Part shown: piece by piece, positions 2,188-26,985 of the stretch | Position numbering within the stretch: position 1 is the stretch's first letter | How the letters are laid out: every line of letters starts with the position of its first letter | From: Paraglomus occultum | Lineage: Eukaryota; Glomeromycota; Glomeromycetes; Paraglomerales; Paraglomeraceae | DNA: 39,968 nucleotides | Reading direction: 5' to 3' | NCBI GenBank assembly: GCA_910592205.1 | Contig: CAJVPJ010000148.1 | Location: 1 to 39,968 of the forward strand | Made by a program: the position numbers and the translations under genes | The notes under the pieces: generated by a model | Seen by the model: only the letters and a program-made list of their open reading frames with translations | Told to the model about the DNA's origin: nothing | The model's database searches: none

Positions 2188-2776
2188 TTTAAATGTATGT
2201 GGCTTAGCAATCGTGATGACGTACCTAAAAATTTTTTTGCTTTACTGCAAAACAACAGTACTCGTGTCTACCGATCTCGAGCATCAACGCACAACACCTC
2301 CCACTCCATGATTTCTTATGTTCGACAGATTGGACTTTATGCCAGATCAAACGTGTGTATTAAGTACTGTGCACCCTAATAACCTGATGTCTTTGGGTAA
2401 AATTTTTTCTGTACGTTCACTCTGCTTAGTTATCTATCCGGCTACAAATAAGACCGAGATCTATACATCAGACGTAACGGCTATTTTTCAATGAATGAAT
2501 GGATATTCACGCTCGAATACTTGTCACTAATTTGCTGTTGATATTTCTACGTTTAACTTATCGAGTTGTCATTATAATAAAGCCAGAAACACGGGAACCG
2601 TCAAAGAAGGAGAAATTCGTTATAAAGTTAAAAGTGCCGTCCATCAGTTTCTCAACCAGCGACGGACTGCGACTGAAAACGTTAGCACGACTGACGGCCA
2701 TCAGTTTCTCAACTGGCAATCGACCGCAATTGAAAACACCAGCACGAATACCAGCACGGATATAAACGCACCTGAC
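2188..2776. other. Region upstream of the Crinkler gene, with a diverged ~60-bp tandem duplication
   Basis: No separate gene is credible here. Bases 2641-2757 contain two diverged copies of a ~60-bp unit, each starting CCATCAGTTTCTCAAC. In the frame of the downstream gene the region from 2531 is open but has no ATG. It reads as two copies of an HQFLN-containing peptide, so it may be an N-terminal extension reached from an unseen upstream exon, or simply 5' leader. Confidence 0.4.
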
Positions 2777-5531
2777 ATGAGACCCCCAAAGGCCTGGTAC
2801 AAACTTGTAAAGCCCGAAAGCGCCTGGGACAAAATTCCTCTGCTTGAGGTCGAAGACGTAAGCGACCTCAAGAATGCGATCAAGAAAGCAATGTCACCGA
2901 AGTTAGATCTCTATCCCGCCGCCGATCTCATTCTCAAAGCGTCAAAGTTCGATAACAAGGACGCTGGCAATGCCATTGAGTTCGATTCGGAGAGCCAACT
3001 TGAATCAATCCTAAAGTATTTTGGAGTAGAACAAACTCCAATTCATCAATCTTTCGCTGCAAATATTAGGCTGTTCCTAAGTGCTCAGGATGGTAAGTAA
3101 AACTGTGCCATTCTCATCACGCATTGTCTCATCTTGGGCGTCTCGGCATGCTCGCGCTGGGGTTCAGTATGTTTTACGTTCGTATAGCTACCACTTTCAC
3201 ACGCTCTTGCCTCGTAGCCTCTTCTACATGCTCCTGCTATTTTGTTTTTGTCGCTCGCTCTAAATTTCTTCGCCATTTATTGACCCGTTCGTTCCTTCAT
3301 TTTCTGCTGTCGCTCTAATTCCCTTAGTCATCTATTGTATCATTCATTTTTGTTTTTTGTCATTCCTTCGACGTTTTTTCTTACACTTTTGCGTTCGTGT
3401 CATTGATCGCCCCGACACTGCATTCCGATGTCCACATATTGACAATGTGTTCCGTGCAGTCATCATTTATAACCATTTTATTCTTGTTTATTCTATCATA
3501 CCAATGATAATCTTATCCCTACGTTCCTCATAGTTACCCACTTGCCGTCTGCATTGAAGAGGAAGCTGGATTTGCAGGCCATTGCACACAGCAAGTCCAA
3601 CTTTTATTTTTATTTAATAAGTATAATCTCCGGCAGATATGGCATTTTCTGACCCACTGATTTCTCACAGAACGTCGCAAGTTTGCCGCCGCCACTGAGG
3701 CTGATCCGGTCAACAACTTCTATATTGAACCCAAGATTCTCGAAAATTTTGCATCATACCTCCTTAACCGTCAGTTCTGCCTCCTTTTTGGACATCGCCA
3801 GAGTGGCAAGACTACCATTTGTCATGCATTGTTGCGATGGTTCTACGAACACCCAGAAAAGTTCACAGAATTTTCCGGTTGTAACCCCGATGACTTCGAC
3901 ATGCATGTCGTAACCTTTGATGCCACAGTTCGGGCCGATCAAGGGTCAAAAGTATTCTGGAAAGCTGTGTGCGAAAGACTTTATTCTTTAGACAAGAGCC
4001 GAATCGACGTCAACCTTCCCGCAACGAGTTCCGGAGCTTTCTTGAATTTCTTCTCGAAACGCAATCATCCTTCGTCAAAGCCGGTTATTCTCCTCATCGA
4101 TGAAGCTTCGCGCCTAACTAGCGTGGGTGGTGAAACTGATGTCACAAATGAGGTTACCGATGAATTTATCAGCGTGCTACGGTCTCTAAAGAACGCTCAC
4201 GATTATTCTCTACATGGTCTTGCGCTTGTCGGCACCGAAAGTATTAGAGAGCTCTTGGTCGCTCACAATAAGCCTGGTGCTTCGTCCCAAATTTCGCCGT
4301 TTTCACAAGAGGCAACCTGGATGGCCGGCCGGTTTACCAAAGCCGAAGTCGAAGAACTTTTTGGCCAGTTCGCTAAGGATAGAAGTTCTATGTTCGATTC
4401 GGTCAATATTGCAACAGATGTTTTCGAACTCACTCTTGGCCATAAAGGTCTTGTCGGCGCTTGTGGTGCTTATGTTCAGCAAGGATACGATTTTGGAAGC
4501 TCCCCCATTATAACCCTTGATGACTGGAAGAAGTATACACCTGTTGAACTACGGCGATTCATAGTACAAAAGCAACATTATGACTCCATCGTGCGATCTC
4601 TCGGCAATCTCTCTCCGGCGAGCAAATCTATTCTTATGGACGTTCTCGGTCATGGCATTTGTGAAGTTGATCCCGTAAGTTAACTTCTTTTGTTTCATTT
4701 TTGATCTTCAATCTGTCATTTATTTATTATAATTTTTTTTGAAAAGACAAAGGAGGCTACGAAATATCTTTTGGCGGAAGGAATGGTGTATGTTAAGGAG
4801 GAACGAAGTGACGGAAGCGCGATAATTGAATGCGCCGCGCCTATCCTTCGGGGTCTAATGCTCTCCCACATAAGTATGCGTGGATTCAACCTATCTCGGG
4901 CTCCACCGGATGAGAAAGAGATTGACCTTCAGTGGTTGTTAGGTGGTATTATGCAAAAATTGATGGTCGATCTTCTGATTAGTTCTTTTTTCCTATACAG
5001 TGCTTGTCCATTCGGAGACTCTACGCACCGCAATTCTTGAACGCCGATGGAAACCCGTCGGAGTATTCGTTTCAATCAGAATTTGCAACTGTTTTCAGGC
5101 ACTTGCTCCCGTTGGCGTATCCAGTCCTGCGATATAAAACTATAGTGGAGGTTAAAGAGCGCAATGAAGACGGCCGCCGTTCTCAACGATTAGATATCCT
5201 CATCCGCAACGGTTCCGACCTACCGTCATACGGTTTTGAGCTCGTCGTTGCAGCGAGTCGACCAAATTTCGACGAACACCACAAAAGGGCTCATGACTAC
5301 GGCAAGCTCCATGGCTGTCGTCACGTGTTAATGGTTAATTTGTGCCCTAAGGTTACGCTAAGTGAATATTTCGGGAAAATGAATTACGACAATGTGACTC
5401 CAGCGAATGTGGTCATCAAGCCAAATGAATTTAAGGGTGTAATTAGATTTGAAGAAAACGACGAACATGTATCGATTACTGGTACCGACTGGGATATGAT
5501 GTTCAATAGTGATCTTGAATATGCAGCCTAA
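2777..5531 (+). CDS. Crinkler (CRN) effector: ubiquitin-like header, P-loop NTPase, REase-fold C-terminus
   Basis: Exons are 2777-3092, 3671-4674, 4747 to about 4942/4965, and 5001-5531. Residues 1-105 resemble the CRN ubiquitin-like header (EVEDVSDLKNAIKKAM then an AADLIL motif). Exon 2 has Walker A GHRQSGKTT near residue 146 and Walker B VILLIDEA about 100 residues later. The last exon has a REase-like core, RLDILIRNG followed by YGFELVVAAS, then EHHKRAHDYGKL; the classic ExK lysine is absent, and I have not checked whether this is usual for the family. CRN proteins act inside host or competitor cells, and many carry this NTPase-nuclease layout. The first intron is long (578 nt). The exon 3/4 junction does not resolve to an ordinary intron: the good-looking intron 4943-5000 breaks frame, and the frame-preserving one (4966-5000) is only 35 nt. 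The gene may be damaged. The start at 2777 is the first in-frame ATG after a stop at 2528. Confidence 0.8.
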
Positions 5532-5814: not shown

Positions 5815-6045
5815 TTATTCTTCTATTTTTCTTTTTTTTCTTGGTTCTTGAAATGGTTCTGCCAACGTCCGCTTAAGAGCTTTTTCTGACCTTTCCTCTT
5901 GGTAAATTTCATAAGTTATCTTTTCTTGGTCTAGATAGTCCTTGATAGTCTGCATGCTTTTTAGTTTGAAAATATAAGGAGCGATTTTTTCACCTTGTTC
6001 TTGCTTTAAAAGAGAGTGTAAAGTGCTGTAGTTTTTGGGCTCCAT
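5815..6045 (-). CDS. Small basic/acidic protein of unknown family, 76 aa
   Basis: The ATG at 6045 gives 76 residues; the same frame has an earlier ATG at 6138, but the 31 extra residues are a membrane-like, AT-driven stretch. The protein is rich in K and E and ends in a basic cluster RKKRKIEE that could act as a nuclear signal. It has no tryptophan, so the genetic code cannot be judged. It lies between the Crinkler gene and the UGA-Trp cluster, inside the 35-bp inverted repeats, pointing away from the cluster. No family is recognised. Confidence 0.45.
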   Translation of the reverse strand: MEPKNYSTLHSLLKQEQGEKIAPYIFKLKSMQTIKDYLDQEKITYEIYQEERSEKALKRTLAEPFQEPRKKRKIEE

Positions 6046-6311
6046 AGTGGATCTAATATAGATAAGTTTCATATATTTCAATTTTATATATATGGATACC
6101 CCTATGTGGAGTACATAATAAATACACAATATTATCAAAATTTTACAAAATCAGACAAACTGAGCGTAATACTAATACATATATAAAATATATATATATA
6201 TTAATTATTAATGAATATGAAAAAGCTCTCCAATTTTTAGAAGTAGTAGTAATTAAGTTTAATAAGTTTAATCTTTTGATGTTGCTAGTACTAGTAAAGT
6301 AAAATACTAAA

Positions 6312-7030
6312 ATGATTTATATACTTATATTAAAAGCAAGCCTATGGTATCAATGGAAAATAACAATTTTTAAACAGGAACTAATTAGAGAATTAGGTGA
6401 AGTAAATTTCATTCCAAAACCTCCTAATGAAGAAATTTTTAGATCAGTGTTTGATAAAATTTTAGTTCACTCTTGTAGTTGACCTGAGTTTTGTGAAAAA
6501 TTCCCCATTAAGGAAGTTTGGCAACACTATCTTGCTGTACAATATCTTTTTTCTCAATATTATATTGGTTATAATAAATTTGAGAAATAGAAAGAAGTTG
6601 GGTGATTACGATCATTAGTAATTAGTTTAGAGAAAGAGAGAAATTCTTTAAAAGGAAATGTTGTTAATTTAGAAAAAGTTAATCAAGAATTAGAGCAAAA
6701 GGTAAAAGAACTGGAAATTCAAGTAGAAGAGTTAGATGATGAGGTACAAATGGAGTGAGAAGAAGCTGAAAAAGCCCTAGACAAATCCAGGGAATGGAGA
6801 ATAAGACAATTAGATGAGGTAAACAATAGTCATGATAAAGAAATGACTAGACTTCTGAAACAAATAGAGAAACTTCAAAACACTCTAGCAATTAGGTGGA
6901 CAAACTTAAAGAAAGTAAAAGTTGAGGGAATAGGAAATGTAAGTTTAAACAAGTAGCAAACAAGATAGATAGGATGAAAGAAAAAGTTCAACAGAAATTT
7001 CAAGTTTTTATCATTCAAAAGGGTAAGTAG
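6312..7030 (+). pseudogene. Decayed coiled-coil protein gene, readable only with UGA = Trp
   Basis: From the ATG at 6312 one frame stays coding-like to a TAG at 6954-6956 but crosses three TGA codons (6480, 6603, 6756) and one TAG (6588). Reading TGA as Trp gives contexts HSCSWPEFCEK, KEVGWLRSL and VQMEWEEAEKAL. A shift of frame near 6930 then continues the coil to a TAG at 7028-7030. A likely +1 slip near 6365 suggests an original start at the downstream ATG (about 6353), giving a MVSMENNNF-like N-terminus. The second half is a long K/E/L coiled coil (LEKVNQELEQKVKELEIQ). There are no introns. It is followed after 4 bp by the next frame, as in a bacterial operon. Under the standard code it would be fragments under 60 codons. 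Confidence 0.65.
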
Positions 7031-7034
7031 TCAT

Positions 7035-7532
7035 ATGAGATTAGCATTAGAATATAGAGTATTAGAGGTAGCAAAAGGAGATGAATGGCAATGTAACTAT
7101 TGTTTTTTAGATTTCGAAGACCAGACTAACCTTAACTTCAATACTGCCCTCACTACTCATCAAATGGTCGCGATTGACAAGAAAACTGATGACTATGCTG
7201 ATATAGCTTTTATTTGTGGTGATTGTAAAAGAGATTTTGAAAATAATGCTCTTCCTTGATGTGAAAAGTGTGGAAAGTTAAAGAGAAACCGAAGAAGATG
7301 TTTTTGCCATTTGGAAAAAGACAAAAGCACCAAACAACTCTCTACGGAAGAAATAATTTCTCAGACTTTTAGTTCTCGTTTGGAAAAGAAAACTAGGGAG
7401 CTAGAAAATGAGCTATCAACTACTAAAGAGGCATTAGAAATCGAAAGAGAAGAAGTAGCCAAGTTTCAAGAGAAGTCAGAGGAGTGGAGCAAGAAACAGA
7501 AGCAAGAACTCTTGGATAGGATAAAGAATTAG
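7035..7532 (+). CDS. Zinc-ribbon plus coiled-coil protein, intact only with UGA = Trp
   Basis: The frame runs from the ATG at 7035 to a TAG at 7530-7532 and is 165 codons with a single internal TGA (7257-7259). On both sides of that codon the sequence is plainly one protein: CNYC and CGDC pairs upstream, then ALP-(UGA)-CEKCGKLKRNRRRCFC downstream. Together they give four cysteine pairs typical of zinc-ribbon folds, with the UGA exactly where a Trp next to a Cys pair is natural. The C-terminal ~70 residues are a coiled coil. Standard Trp codons (TGG) also occur, as in Mollicutes. Under the nuclear code the protein would be truncated at residue 74 inside the zinc cluster. No named family is recognised. 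Confidence 0.65.
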
Positions 7533-7593
7533 AAATTAATGGTAAACATAACAAAAAATCCCACTTGCCAAACTCTCTTCCTTCTTTATCCTA

Positions 7594-7806
7594 ATGTGAC
7601 TAGGTGGTAACCCACAAAGCCCTGCGAGCTGGATACATTTTCCAGTAGAAAGATTAAAAAAACGGACTCCTCAAGAACTGGTTAATGAAATAGAATGTTA
7701 TAAGGAAGAAGTTGCTCGATTAAAATCTCAATTAGAAAAATTAAATTCTCAACAGAAGGCTCGAATTGAAGTTAAAAAGTGACCTTGATTGAAAATAAGC
7801 AATTAA
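7594..7806 (+). CDS. Short coiled-coil protein with three UGA = Trp codons
   Basis: The frame is ATG at 7594 to TAA at 7804-7806, 70 codons, with TGA at 7597, 7780 and 7786. Read as Trp it begins MWLGGNPQSPASW and ends KKWPWLKISN, with a coiled coil (VARLKSQLEKLNSQ) between. Having TGA as codon 2 and twice within three codons of a WPW motif makes the alternative code hard to avoid if this is a gene. It ends 27 bp before the right arm of the 35-bp inverted repeat. The family is unknown. Confidence 0.5.
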
Positions 7807-7832
7807 AAAAAAATTACTAAGTGACGTCAAAT

Positions 7833-7867
7833 GTTCACTTTGTCTGGTTTTGTTGCAGCACGCCCCA
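7833..7867 (-). repeat. 35-bp inverted repeat, right arm
   Basis: This is the perfect inverted copy of 2153-2187. It closes a 5.7-kb interval that holds the Crinkler gene, the small minus-strand ORF and the UGA-Trp cluster. Confidence 0.85.
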
Positions 7868-8304
7868 AATATGCTGTAGGTTTACGAAAGTAAAAGTTTG
7901 ATTAAAACATAATTAATATTATCTTGGCTGTAAAACTTTGAATTCGATTGATATTATAGATCCCAATCTCGCAAAAATAAATCATAAATCTTTTTTTGTT
8001 TTTCTTTGGTTAACTGATGGAAGTTGAATTCTAATTTTATTATTAGCTAACCCTTGATTCGTACATTTAGTATCGTTTTTTTGTATTGATTGAATCGTTC
8101 CTTGAGTGCTTCCCAAAATAGAAATGTTGACGAATAACTTCTTGTATTATTTTTTTTACTGATTTTTCGTCATTAATTATATTTTGATACAAAACTAGAA
8201 AATCAATAGATTTTTCATTCGATTCGGATATTAGTTTTGTTGACAAAGTTTATTCGAATATCGGTTCTCAATTTTTTAATTAATTTTTATAATTTAGGAT
8301 AATT
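7868..8304. other. AT-rich spacer, no gene seen
   Basis: There are no convincing codon patterns on either strand. Confidence 0.4.
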
Positions 8305-25137: not shown

Positions 25138-25584
25138 TCATAATAAAATGCACCCGGAATATTGAAATAATTATTGTCTAAACATTGAAAATGAGTATTG
25201 AAAGTGATCTGTTTGCTTGCCTCTAGAGTTTTTAATACTAATACTAATTGGTTCATAAAGTATTAGTGTTAATATTAATAATTGGAGAACATTAGGTAAT
25301 ATATAGACAAGATAGACCAATGACAATCAACTTGATCAGATATTACTTTATACTGTCCACAACCCCAATTTATACTGGCAATGAATAAAATATTAGACTA
25401 AAATTTTCTCCATCATTTCAGTGCTCATTAATATTAATTGCCATTAAGTTTATTGAATTTATCTCTAACGAATGGGCGAATATTATGATAAAGATATTCT
25501 TGCCTTTTGTAATCCAAAGGAGGAGGGGTTAGTACTAAGATGGAAAAGAATTTAATTTCTTTGGTAATTTCAGCTACATTTGCT
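25138..25584. other. Spacer, nothing supported
   Basis: AT-rich DNA, with no gene seen. Confidence 0.35.
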
Positions 25585-26985
25585 TTCTAGTTTTAACAGA
25601 TTAAATTCAGTAAAAGCACCATTAGTCATCAGCTTAGTTTTGACAATACCAGGTTTGGCTGCTTTGAATACAAAATGCTGATATTTTGTAAACCACTCAA
25701 TTGTTCTTAAAAAAATTTTCCAACACGGAATTAAGATCTAAGTACTGAAAACCTTTTCCATTATCATAGCGTTGAGATCTTGTTTAATCCTGCTATACTC
25801 AATTTTTTCACGATCTTAACGATATGGTCTACATAATCAACTGTCATCTTTAGGTAAAGTTTCTTAATCAGTTCAAAACTACCATCACACTTGAATTTAG
25901 TATGGCCAGGCACCATGCATTTAATTCGATACTTTCATAATAACTACTAAATACAGGTAAAATCAAATGGTAACATTATTTTTATTCTGTCCTCCTGTAT
26001 TGTCGCAAGTGATCTTTAAATCGTTTAATTCCATCGAATACCATGCTCAGCGTACCATTAGGACCTTTGCCAATAATTTCATCTTCATCGAGAACGTAAT
26101 TAAATTGTTCGCGTACCGCTTCATCTTGAATACCAAATAAATGTACTTTACGCGGACTGAGATAATAAATCTTACTTACTTGTGAACGTTTTGTGCCCAA
26201 TCGTAACTGTAATGCGCAGTCGCGTCAACACTACAATAATCAGCTTTATCTCTTATTATAAAACGTTCGTTTACCAATTTTCTCTGTTGTTGTAATAATT
26301 TCTCTCTTACTAGATGTTCTTTGTATTTTTCAACAAATCTCTGGCTTTCTCCTCCTTGCGAGCATTATACTGTAAGCCGTTCCGAAAATGTTGGCATAAA
26401 TCCGTTTGTGGGACTCATAATTTGAATATAAGGCATTAATTGGTGCCATAACTTGCAAACGCATCATACTTTAACAATTTCAACGTGCTATCGCTTTCGA
26501 GGCCTGCAATAAAATTACGATAGACAGATTTATGACTCGTTTCCGCTGGCAAAAGTGTAAGCGATTGAGTAATGCGATTGACATTTCTGCCAGGACTTGG
26601 TAATCCATGTATTTCAGCATAATTCTCGAGAAAATTCTTGACGGCGGTAGCAATGGTTATATCAATGGTTATTTTGGTTTTCCATCGCGGCACTCTTTTT
26701 ACATTACCATGAACGCGCGGCATTATACCATTCGTCGCCAAGTTATTTCTAACGCTTTCGAAGTGCGTGCGACCAATTCCTCAACATATTAAGATACGTT
26801 TTCTGACAAAGAGGCGTATTTCGATCTCAATAATAAAAAGTTTTTTTATTAGTACGCGTTTTCTTTTTAAGACGTCGACTGAAGTTATTTCTCCACCATT
26901 CATTGCTTTCAGTTGAGCCATTAAAAATATATCTTGTTCGGATCTAGAGAGAGCTTGAAACGTCCCGATAACAAACATGAGTACA
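25585..26985 (-). pseudogene. Decayed transposon protein, DUF7869-like (DDE-type) family
   Basis: Pieces of one protein follow each other on the minus strand in several frames. The order is FVIGTFQALSRSEQDIFL (near 26975), a block with HGLPSPGRNVNRITQSLTL (26741-26436), a broken block with ATAHYSYDWAQNVH (near 26200), YYLSPRKVHLFGIQDEA and DEDEIIGKGPNGTLSMVF (26200-25982), MVPGHTKFKCDGSFELIKK (near 25920), and QHFVFKAAKPGIVKTK (near 25660). The GHTKF-CD-FGL-like motif followed by QHF-F-PGI matches the transposase-like domain common in fungal TE genes. Many stops and shifts show it is dead. The family name is from memory and moderately certain; the TE nature is more certain. Confidence 0.65.

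Follow-up and report, generated by a model that had tools for sequence, protein, structure and literature searches.

Endobacteria of arbuscular mycorrhizal fungi have been described to switch hosts (excerpt of PMC11423566), and fungal genes have been transferred into such endobacteria (excerpt of PMC10507103). Rhizophagus irregularis was found to contain bacterial genes, for which the excerpt of PMC5982333 gives no donor among the known endobacteria of this kind. The systems closest to the transposon-like element described here are the DDE transposases and retroviral integrases (Mos1, IstA, and retroviral cores), which it resembles by the RNase H-like catalytic core of a predicted model, and proteins with the domain DUF7869 (PF25273), of which no mention was found in the literature searched. 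DUF7869 proteins in Gigaspora, Rhizophagus, and Elysia records carry the same domain and are 30-42% identical to the transposase of the element; those of Gigaspora and Rhizophagus form a separate clade and are taken as standard-code from their annotation. A DUF7869 protein named from Candidatus Moeniiplasma glomeromycotorum (P0145) differs from the transposase in its length of 329 amino acids (aa), with 52% identity over 56% of the query, and is known here from the protein alone.

We analyzed a stretch of 39,968 nucleotides from the fungus Paraglomus occultum (contig C148, positions 1-39968; termed the window), belonging to an assembly of 32.3 Mb in 1,408 contigs. The original prediction was that the frames between 6312 and 7806, with their in-frame TGA codons, constitute a transferred gene cluster in which UGA encodes tryptophan (Trp). 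The UGA=Trp origin, related to Mollicutes endobacteria, could be kept, while the single transferred cluster could not. Judged from sequence, the frames are instead what decay has left of one copy in a transposon-like family dispersed through the genome. The family unit consists of a small basic open reading frame (ORF1), a DUF7869 protein of about 590 aa (the transposase), a lysine- and glutamate-rich (K/E-rich) gene, a zinc-ribbon gene, and a 38-nt end. The window copy has the following features:

2153-2190, + strand: 38-nt end repeat, left copy, a possible left element end and the inverted partner of 7830-7867
5815-6045, - strand: ORF1, a small basic protein of 76 aa with a KKRK tail, recurring in other copies
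6066-6254, + strand: 5' remnant of the DUF7869 gene with a deletion junction (about 6232/6254); 6066-6299 groups with transposase frames
6303-6956, + strand: K/E-rich frame, probably coiled-coil, with TGA at 6480, 6603, and 6756 and TAG at 6588; a sister frame is found in contig C1
7035-7532, + strand: zinc-ribbon frame with TGA at 7257
7533-7647, no strand assigned: insertion breaking the zinc-ribbon gene, with TGA at 7597; a gap in the C1 copy
7648-7806, + strand: C-terminal end of the zinc-ribbon gene with TGA at 7780 and 7786
7830-7867, - strand: 38-nt end repeat, the right element end, recurring on the zinc-ribbon side of many copies

In the transposon family UGA stands in the place of Trp codons. 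At 63 Trp-aligned positions of the transposase in 16 loci, we found TGA 37 times, TGG 21 times, TAG once, TAA never, and other codons four times, and off the Trp sites TGA occurred at 22 of 7,021 positions, 10 of these in the older copy of the window (see below). The 85 Trp-aligned positions of the zinc-ribbon ORF in 19 loci were TGA (46), TGG (9), TAA (2), TAG (0), or another codon (28), with TGA at 7 of 3,811 positions elsewhere. These codon counts, as well as the selection analysis below, cover the loci other than L048 and L053-L058 (endobacterial or tRNA-search loci) and L001-L033. Since our own transposase query had been read with code 4 (UGA=Trp), the count was redone with proteins of other records. 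Queries from Gigaspora rosea, Rhizophagus clarus, and Elysia gave TGA 5, TGG 5, and one other codon at the RKLW site, and the two fungal queries gave TGA 7, TGG 4, and one other codon at the YDWAQ site. Ten of 11 fungal ORFs were without TGA, the 11 together having 41 TGG; the eleventh, PGAP1, had three TGA, which are perhaps intron sequence.

In the window all seven TGA codons (6480, 6603, 6756, 7257, 7597, 7780, and 7786) were found at the predicted positions and in frame. The true TAG proposed for the first frame is likewise present (6588), and the C1 copy has the same stop. Three consecutive frames had been proposed, whereas translation with code 4 gives four open stretches over 6303-7806, of which the first two belong to a single frame that TAG 6588 interrupts. 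The reading as Trp is supported for 6480, 6603, 7257, 7780, and 7786, which are TGA in the C1 sister copy too, but not for the remaining two. TGA 6756 is CGA (Arg) in the C1 sister copy and 7597 lies in the stretch of about 7533-7647 that is absent from the C1 copy, so neither is evidence for Trp; 6756 is probably a product of decay. Furthermore, 6480 and 6603 are not independent evidence, since both are located inside a 341-bp run that is identical, the shared TAG included, in the window (6358-6698) and in the C1 copy (L036, 3623-3963). On either side of this run the two copies are mostly 40-78% identical, which indicates a recent exchange between distant loci. Homologues with Trp at TGA positions, the absence of which had been named as a possible objection, were found for 7257, 7780, and 7786. 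The window zinc-ribbon frame was aligned with 22 homologues, 21 of which have a residue opposite 7257; in six of them it is Trp, and in the others R, K, H, Y, or C. With the C-terminal piece of the window placed on this alignment by eye, Trp stands opposite 7780 in 12 of the 16 homologues that extend to it and opposite 7786 in 14 of 17; the homologues terminate in KKWPWLK or similar. The DEAD-box helicase and the PP2C-like gene (named by eye) of the window both end in TGA, as had been observed for the nuclear genes nearby, and UGA is therefore a stop codon in the host nucleus.

Within the assembly the window DNA matched 41 places (blastn), the zinc-ribbon protein 62, and the transposase at least 97, each number including the query's own place and the last being a lower bound because 74 of 709 candidates were scored. 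Comparison of the window with 20 other regions identified the reverse ORF 5815-6045 (ORF1), the zinc-ribbon gene, and the 38-nt end as the recurring modules. The fuller copies in C1, C458, C1306, and C125 contain an extra frame of about 590 aa with the DUF7869 domain; in a Pfam search of the C1, C458, and C1306 frames it scored 62.7, 56.1, and 44.6 bits, respectively, against a cut-off of 26. No DUF7869 domain is present in the window copy (5.8-7.9 kb). The blocks that match both sides of the window junction stand 1.8 kb apart in C1, and as both sides of the DUF7869 gene are joined at about 6232/6254, the transposase of the window copy has been deleted. Window 7648-7870 is 84% identical to the C1 copy. 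Searches of the window frames 5815-7803 against Pfam and PHROGs gave weak matches only, none over the Pfam cut-off, and this includes the coiled coil of the K/E-rich frame. The zinc-ribbon frame has 182 homologues at E ≤ 0.001, of which the best 120 are listed. The ORF1 tail is PRKKRK[IL]E or close to it, with KKRK in six of the eight copies with a readable tail, and presumably resembles a nuclear import signal.

The predicted inverted repeats were confirmed; they are 38 nt long (2153-2190 and 7830-7867), 97% complementary, and facing each other. Both are of the minority form GGGGCGTGC, found at 6 of the places listed. A search with a 34-letter pattern, allowing up to one mismatch, detected the end at 238 places in the assembly, compared to 0 for the control. 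The base at position -3 before the end was A in 24 of 24 distinct flanks. Facing end pairs are also listed in C43 and C174. In the window the inverted repeats mark the right end and a possible left end of the element; in the C1 copy only the right end was seen, with no left end within 8.4 kb to the left of it. Mobility of the element is suggested by its dispersed copies. The predicted model of the DUF7869 protein has an RNase H-like core, an integrase-type fold, and three conserved acidic residues (D-D-D). Foldseek matches to DDE transposases and integrases were weak when taken alone (best E 0.0013, with the Mos1 and IstA rows at a root mean square deviation >10), the transposase profile had no sequence match in the PDB, and the zinc-ribbon model had no Foldseek match at E ≤ 0.001. 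From the fold and the anatomy of the element together, we infer that the DUF7869 protein would cut and join at the end repeats.

Seven well-preserved copies (L059, L044, L039, and L061-L064) were functional genes while they diverged, with UGA read as Trp. Their ratio of nonsynonymous to synonymous substitution (dN/dS) is 0.05-0.12 at a dS of 0.43-0.66 in all 21 pairs. For L065 against these seven dN/dS was 0.17-0.24, for L037 0.09-0.13 in the five pairs listed, and for the older window copy (25446-26963) 0.27-0.57 (0.23-0.57 with L051 included), the values for broken copies being lowered because TAA and TAG codons are skipped. L036 of C1 was saturated at silent sites against all copies but L051. 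Among the aligned codons TAA or TAG was absent from L036, L059, L061, L063, and L064 and occurred once or twice in L044, L039, L062, and L065, whereas simulations that let L059 drift neutrally by 0.2 changes per site gave a mean of 9.1 such stops and never 0 in 500 runs. The low dN/dS together with the few stops compared to drift argues that the better copies are not sisters that drifted apart after one nuclear burst. They appear to have arrived separately, from a source that was diverse, under selection, and used UGA=Trp.

Copies were found near fungal-type genes in nine other contigs, namely near Rax2 in C1, near a kinase with 12 TGG in C125, and near Utp13, Cdc73, PGAP1, WLM, LDH, DUF5427, and Sel1 in C60, C131, C197, C859, C491, C74, and C455, respectively (LDH and Sel1 occur outside eukaryotes too). 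Fungal neighbors were seen for L059, L036, L037, L060, L051, and the window, where the nearest relatives of the helicase are from Acaulospora (52% identity over 91%) and Ambispora (64% over 53%), which places the host among the Glomeromycotina.

On the bacterial side, two contigs of the same assembly, C16 and C262, are endobacterial to judge by their code, with 67 TGA and 16 TGG in 10 ORFs. On each, a zinc-ribbon gene comes after a K/E-rich frame, and the codon usage of the K/E-rich and zinc-ribbon genes of the element correlates better with that of C16/C262 (r 0.964) than with that of fungal genes (r 0.759). Other genes are thioredoxin and HTH on C16 and LRR and DDE_3 on C262. C16 (79 kb, code-4; L054, 376-1709) has a cluster of five tRNA genes, one of them with anticodon UCA, labeled SeC by ARAGORN and read here as Trp. 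A candidate HU-like gene on C16 was dropped, as Pfam and NCBIfam found none. On C262 (L048, 94-2727), a DDE_3 (IS630/Tc1-like) transposase frame with 11 TGA follows the K/E-rich and zinc-ribbon pair. It is like the element in this pair and in being rich in TGA, but belongs to another transposase family, and the end repeat was not found in L048. More than one endobacterial transposon may carry this pair as an accessory module.

In a 40-row tree of DUF7869 proteins (midpoint-rooted, with long-branch warnings), the Moeniiplasma protein P0145 stands with Racocetra and two metagenome rows, adjoining a 23-row group of TGA copies and relatives. Together they form a 27-row clade (support 100/99), outside of which Gigaspora, Rhizophagus, and two unnamed rows make up a clade of their own. 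A search with code 4 had been proposed originally; it returned the Moeniiplasma-named relative and the zinc-ribbon genes of the code-4 contigs, but the transposase had no relatives among plasmids or phages. No relatives were found in the viral contigs searched either. A number of DUF7869 proteins of about 630-675 aa (P0149-P0170) are encoded on metagenome contigs, many of them near 2 kb; one (P0163) is in a record named uncultured Candidatus Thioglobus. They are perhaps another wide transposon group.

We consider it probable that an endobacterial transposon entered the nucleus recurrently and then decayed. The home of the family, where it evolves with UGA as a Trp codon, would be the Mollicutes-related endobacteria of arbuscular mycorrhizal fungi. 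Copies would have entered host nuclei and integrated repeatedly; there UGA would truncate the element proteins, and the copies would then decay. Several observations weigh against this. No complete element was seen on any endobacterial contig, and alignments of transposase and zinc-ribbon protein found no relatives among the GTDB genome contigs. The Moeniiplasma protein is short, 52% identical, and placed beside rather than within the TGA group. The codon usage of the transposase is not clearly bacterial (r 0.767 to the code-4 contigs and 0.701 to fungal genes). Target-site duplications were not found, the flank pairs of C43 and C174 both being mismatched. No fungal neighbors were seen for L044 and L061-L065, and the dN/dS of broken copies is biased downward as stated above.

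If the family were native to the fungal nucleus, with its proteins made by UGA readthrough or a suppressor tRNA, both the location of copies in fungal contigs and their divergence under protein-level selection would be accounted for. However, the helicase and the PP2C-like gene stop at TGA and all but one of the fungal ORFs lack it. Of five places with a UCA pattern only one was a tRNA according to ARAGORN, and this one is on the code-4 contig C16; the pattern misses intron-bearing tRNAs, which makes this a weak argument. We regard a nuclear-native family as unlikely. Nor do we give much credence to endobacterial contigs misjoined to fungal ones, even though endobacterial contigs are present in this assembly and Glomeromycotina assemblies are reported as contaminated with endobacteria (excerpt of PMC10507103). 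The same end sequence, with its A at -3, borders many different flanks, and the single assembly join feared in the original prediction is therefore unlikely. The decay of the copies is also graded, with TAA, TAG, and frameshifts, and gene models from Ambispora, Geosiphon, Diversispora, and Gigaspora rosea omit the same Trp stretch.

Code 4 is also common to mold mitochondria, and the source could have been another UGA=Trp genome, above all a fungal mitochondrion or mitochondrial plasmid. This is improbable: the zinc-ribbon genes are located on contigs with thioredoxin, HTH, LRR, and DDE_3 genes, and among the relatives only that of Moeniiplasma carries the name of an organism with UGA=Trp. Ordinary decay, with TGG mutating to TGA in fungal genes of the standard code, does explain some codons, namely 6756 and the 22 at non-Trp positions. 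As TGG would turn into TAG about as often as into TGA, the TGA:TAG ratios at Trp sites, 37:1 for the transposase and 46:0 for the zinc-ribbon ORF, make it highly improbable as a general explanation.

The models P0127-P0129 and P0134-P0136 from the four fungi named above, six of six models of the TGA clade in the alignment, lack the part of the protein that contains the Trp of YDWAQ. These models seem to have been spliced around the UGA codons by gene finders. Between the C125 transposase and these models, 422 of 461 residues are shared for Ambispora, 326 of 350 for Geosiphon, and 360 of 409 for Diversispora, while the window helicase is 64, 48, and 51% identical in the same fungi. That the transposase is far closer than the helicase indicates horizontal movement between fungi, for which endobacteria changing hosts are plausibly the vehicle. 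A more comprehensive scenario is conceivable, although we hold it with considerable doubt: a single transposon population, anciently fungal-nuclear and then adapted to UGA=Trp, would shuttle between Mollicutes and the nuclei of arbuscular mycorrhizal fungi and reinsert across fungal lineages as endobacteria switch hosts, with the KKRK of ORF1 helping nuclear entry and some copies carrying host effector-like genes.

Two further features of the window are:

2531-5531, + strand: Crinkler-like gene in the standard code, with open stretches at 2531-3100, 3661-4683, and 4983-5531
25446-26963, - strand: a second, older, heavily decayed DUF7869 copy with many TAA, TAG, and TGA

An effector gene between inverted repeats had been predicted. 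A gene does lie between the ends, but its Crinkler N-terminal domain (PF20147) scored 17.2 bits, under the cut-off of 24.6, and it can only be termed Crinkler-like. An AAA_22 domain was found over its cut-off (42.3 bits against 27), and the two later stretches have five TGG and no TGA. In C455 (L060, 1389-4501), where a relative of this gene has a transposase remnant and an end repeat next to it, such a neighborhood occurs a second time. The Crinkler-like gene may be cargo or a bystander of the element. The older DUF7869 copy contains most of the 10 non-Trp TGA and 10 TAA codons of the window.

If the preferred explanation of recurrent entry and decay is true, a eukaryotic nucleus holds a family of DNA transposons, in many copies, that is written in the genetic code of another organism. 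The direction of transfer would be readable from the code, since UGA in Trp positions is the mark of a gene that evolved in a UGA=Trp genome, and the later TAA, TAG, and frameshifts would measure the time since arrival. The frequency and route by which endosymbiont DNA enters host nuclei would become directly testable. As gene models have seemingly been spliced around the UGA codons, such fungal assemblies may also hold false host genes.
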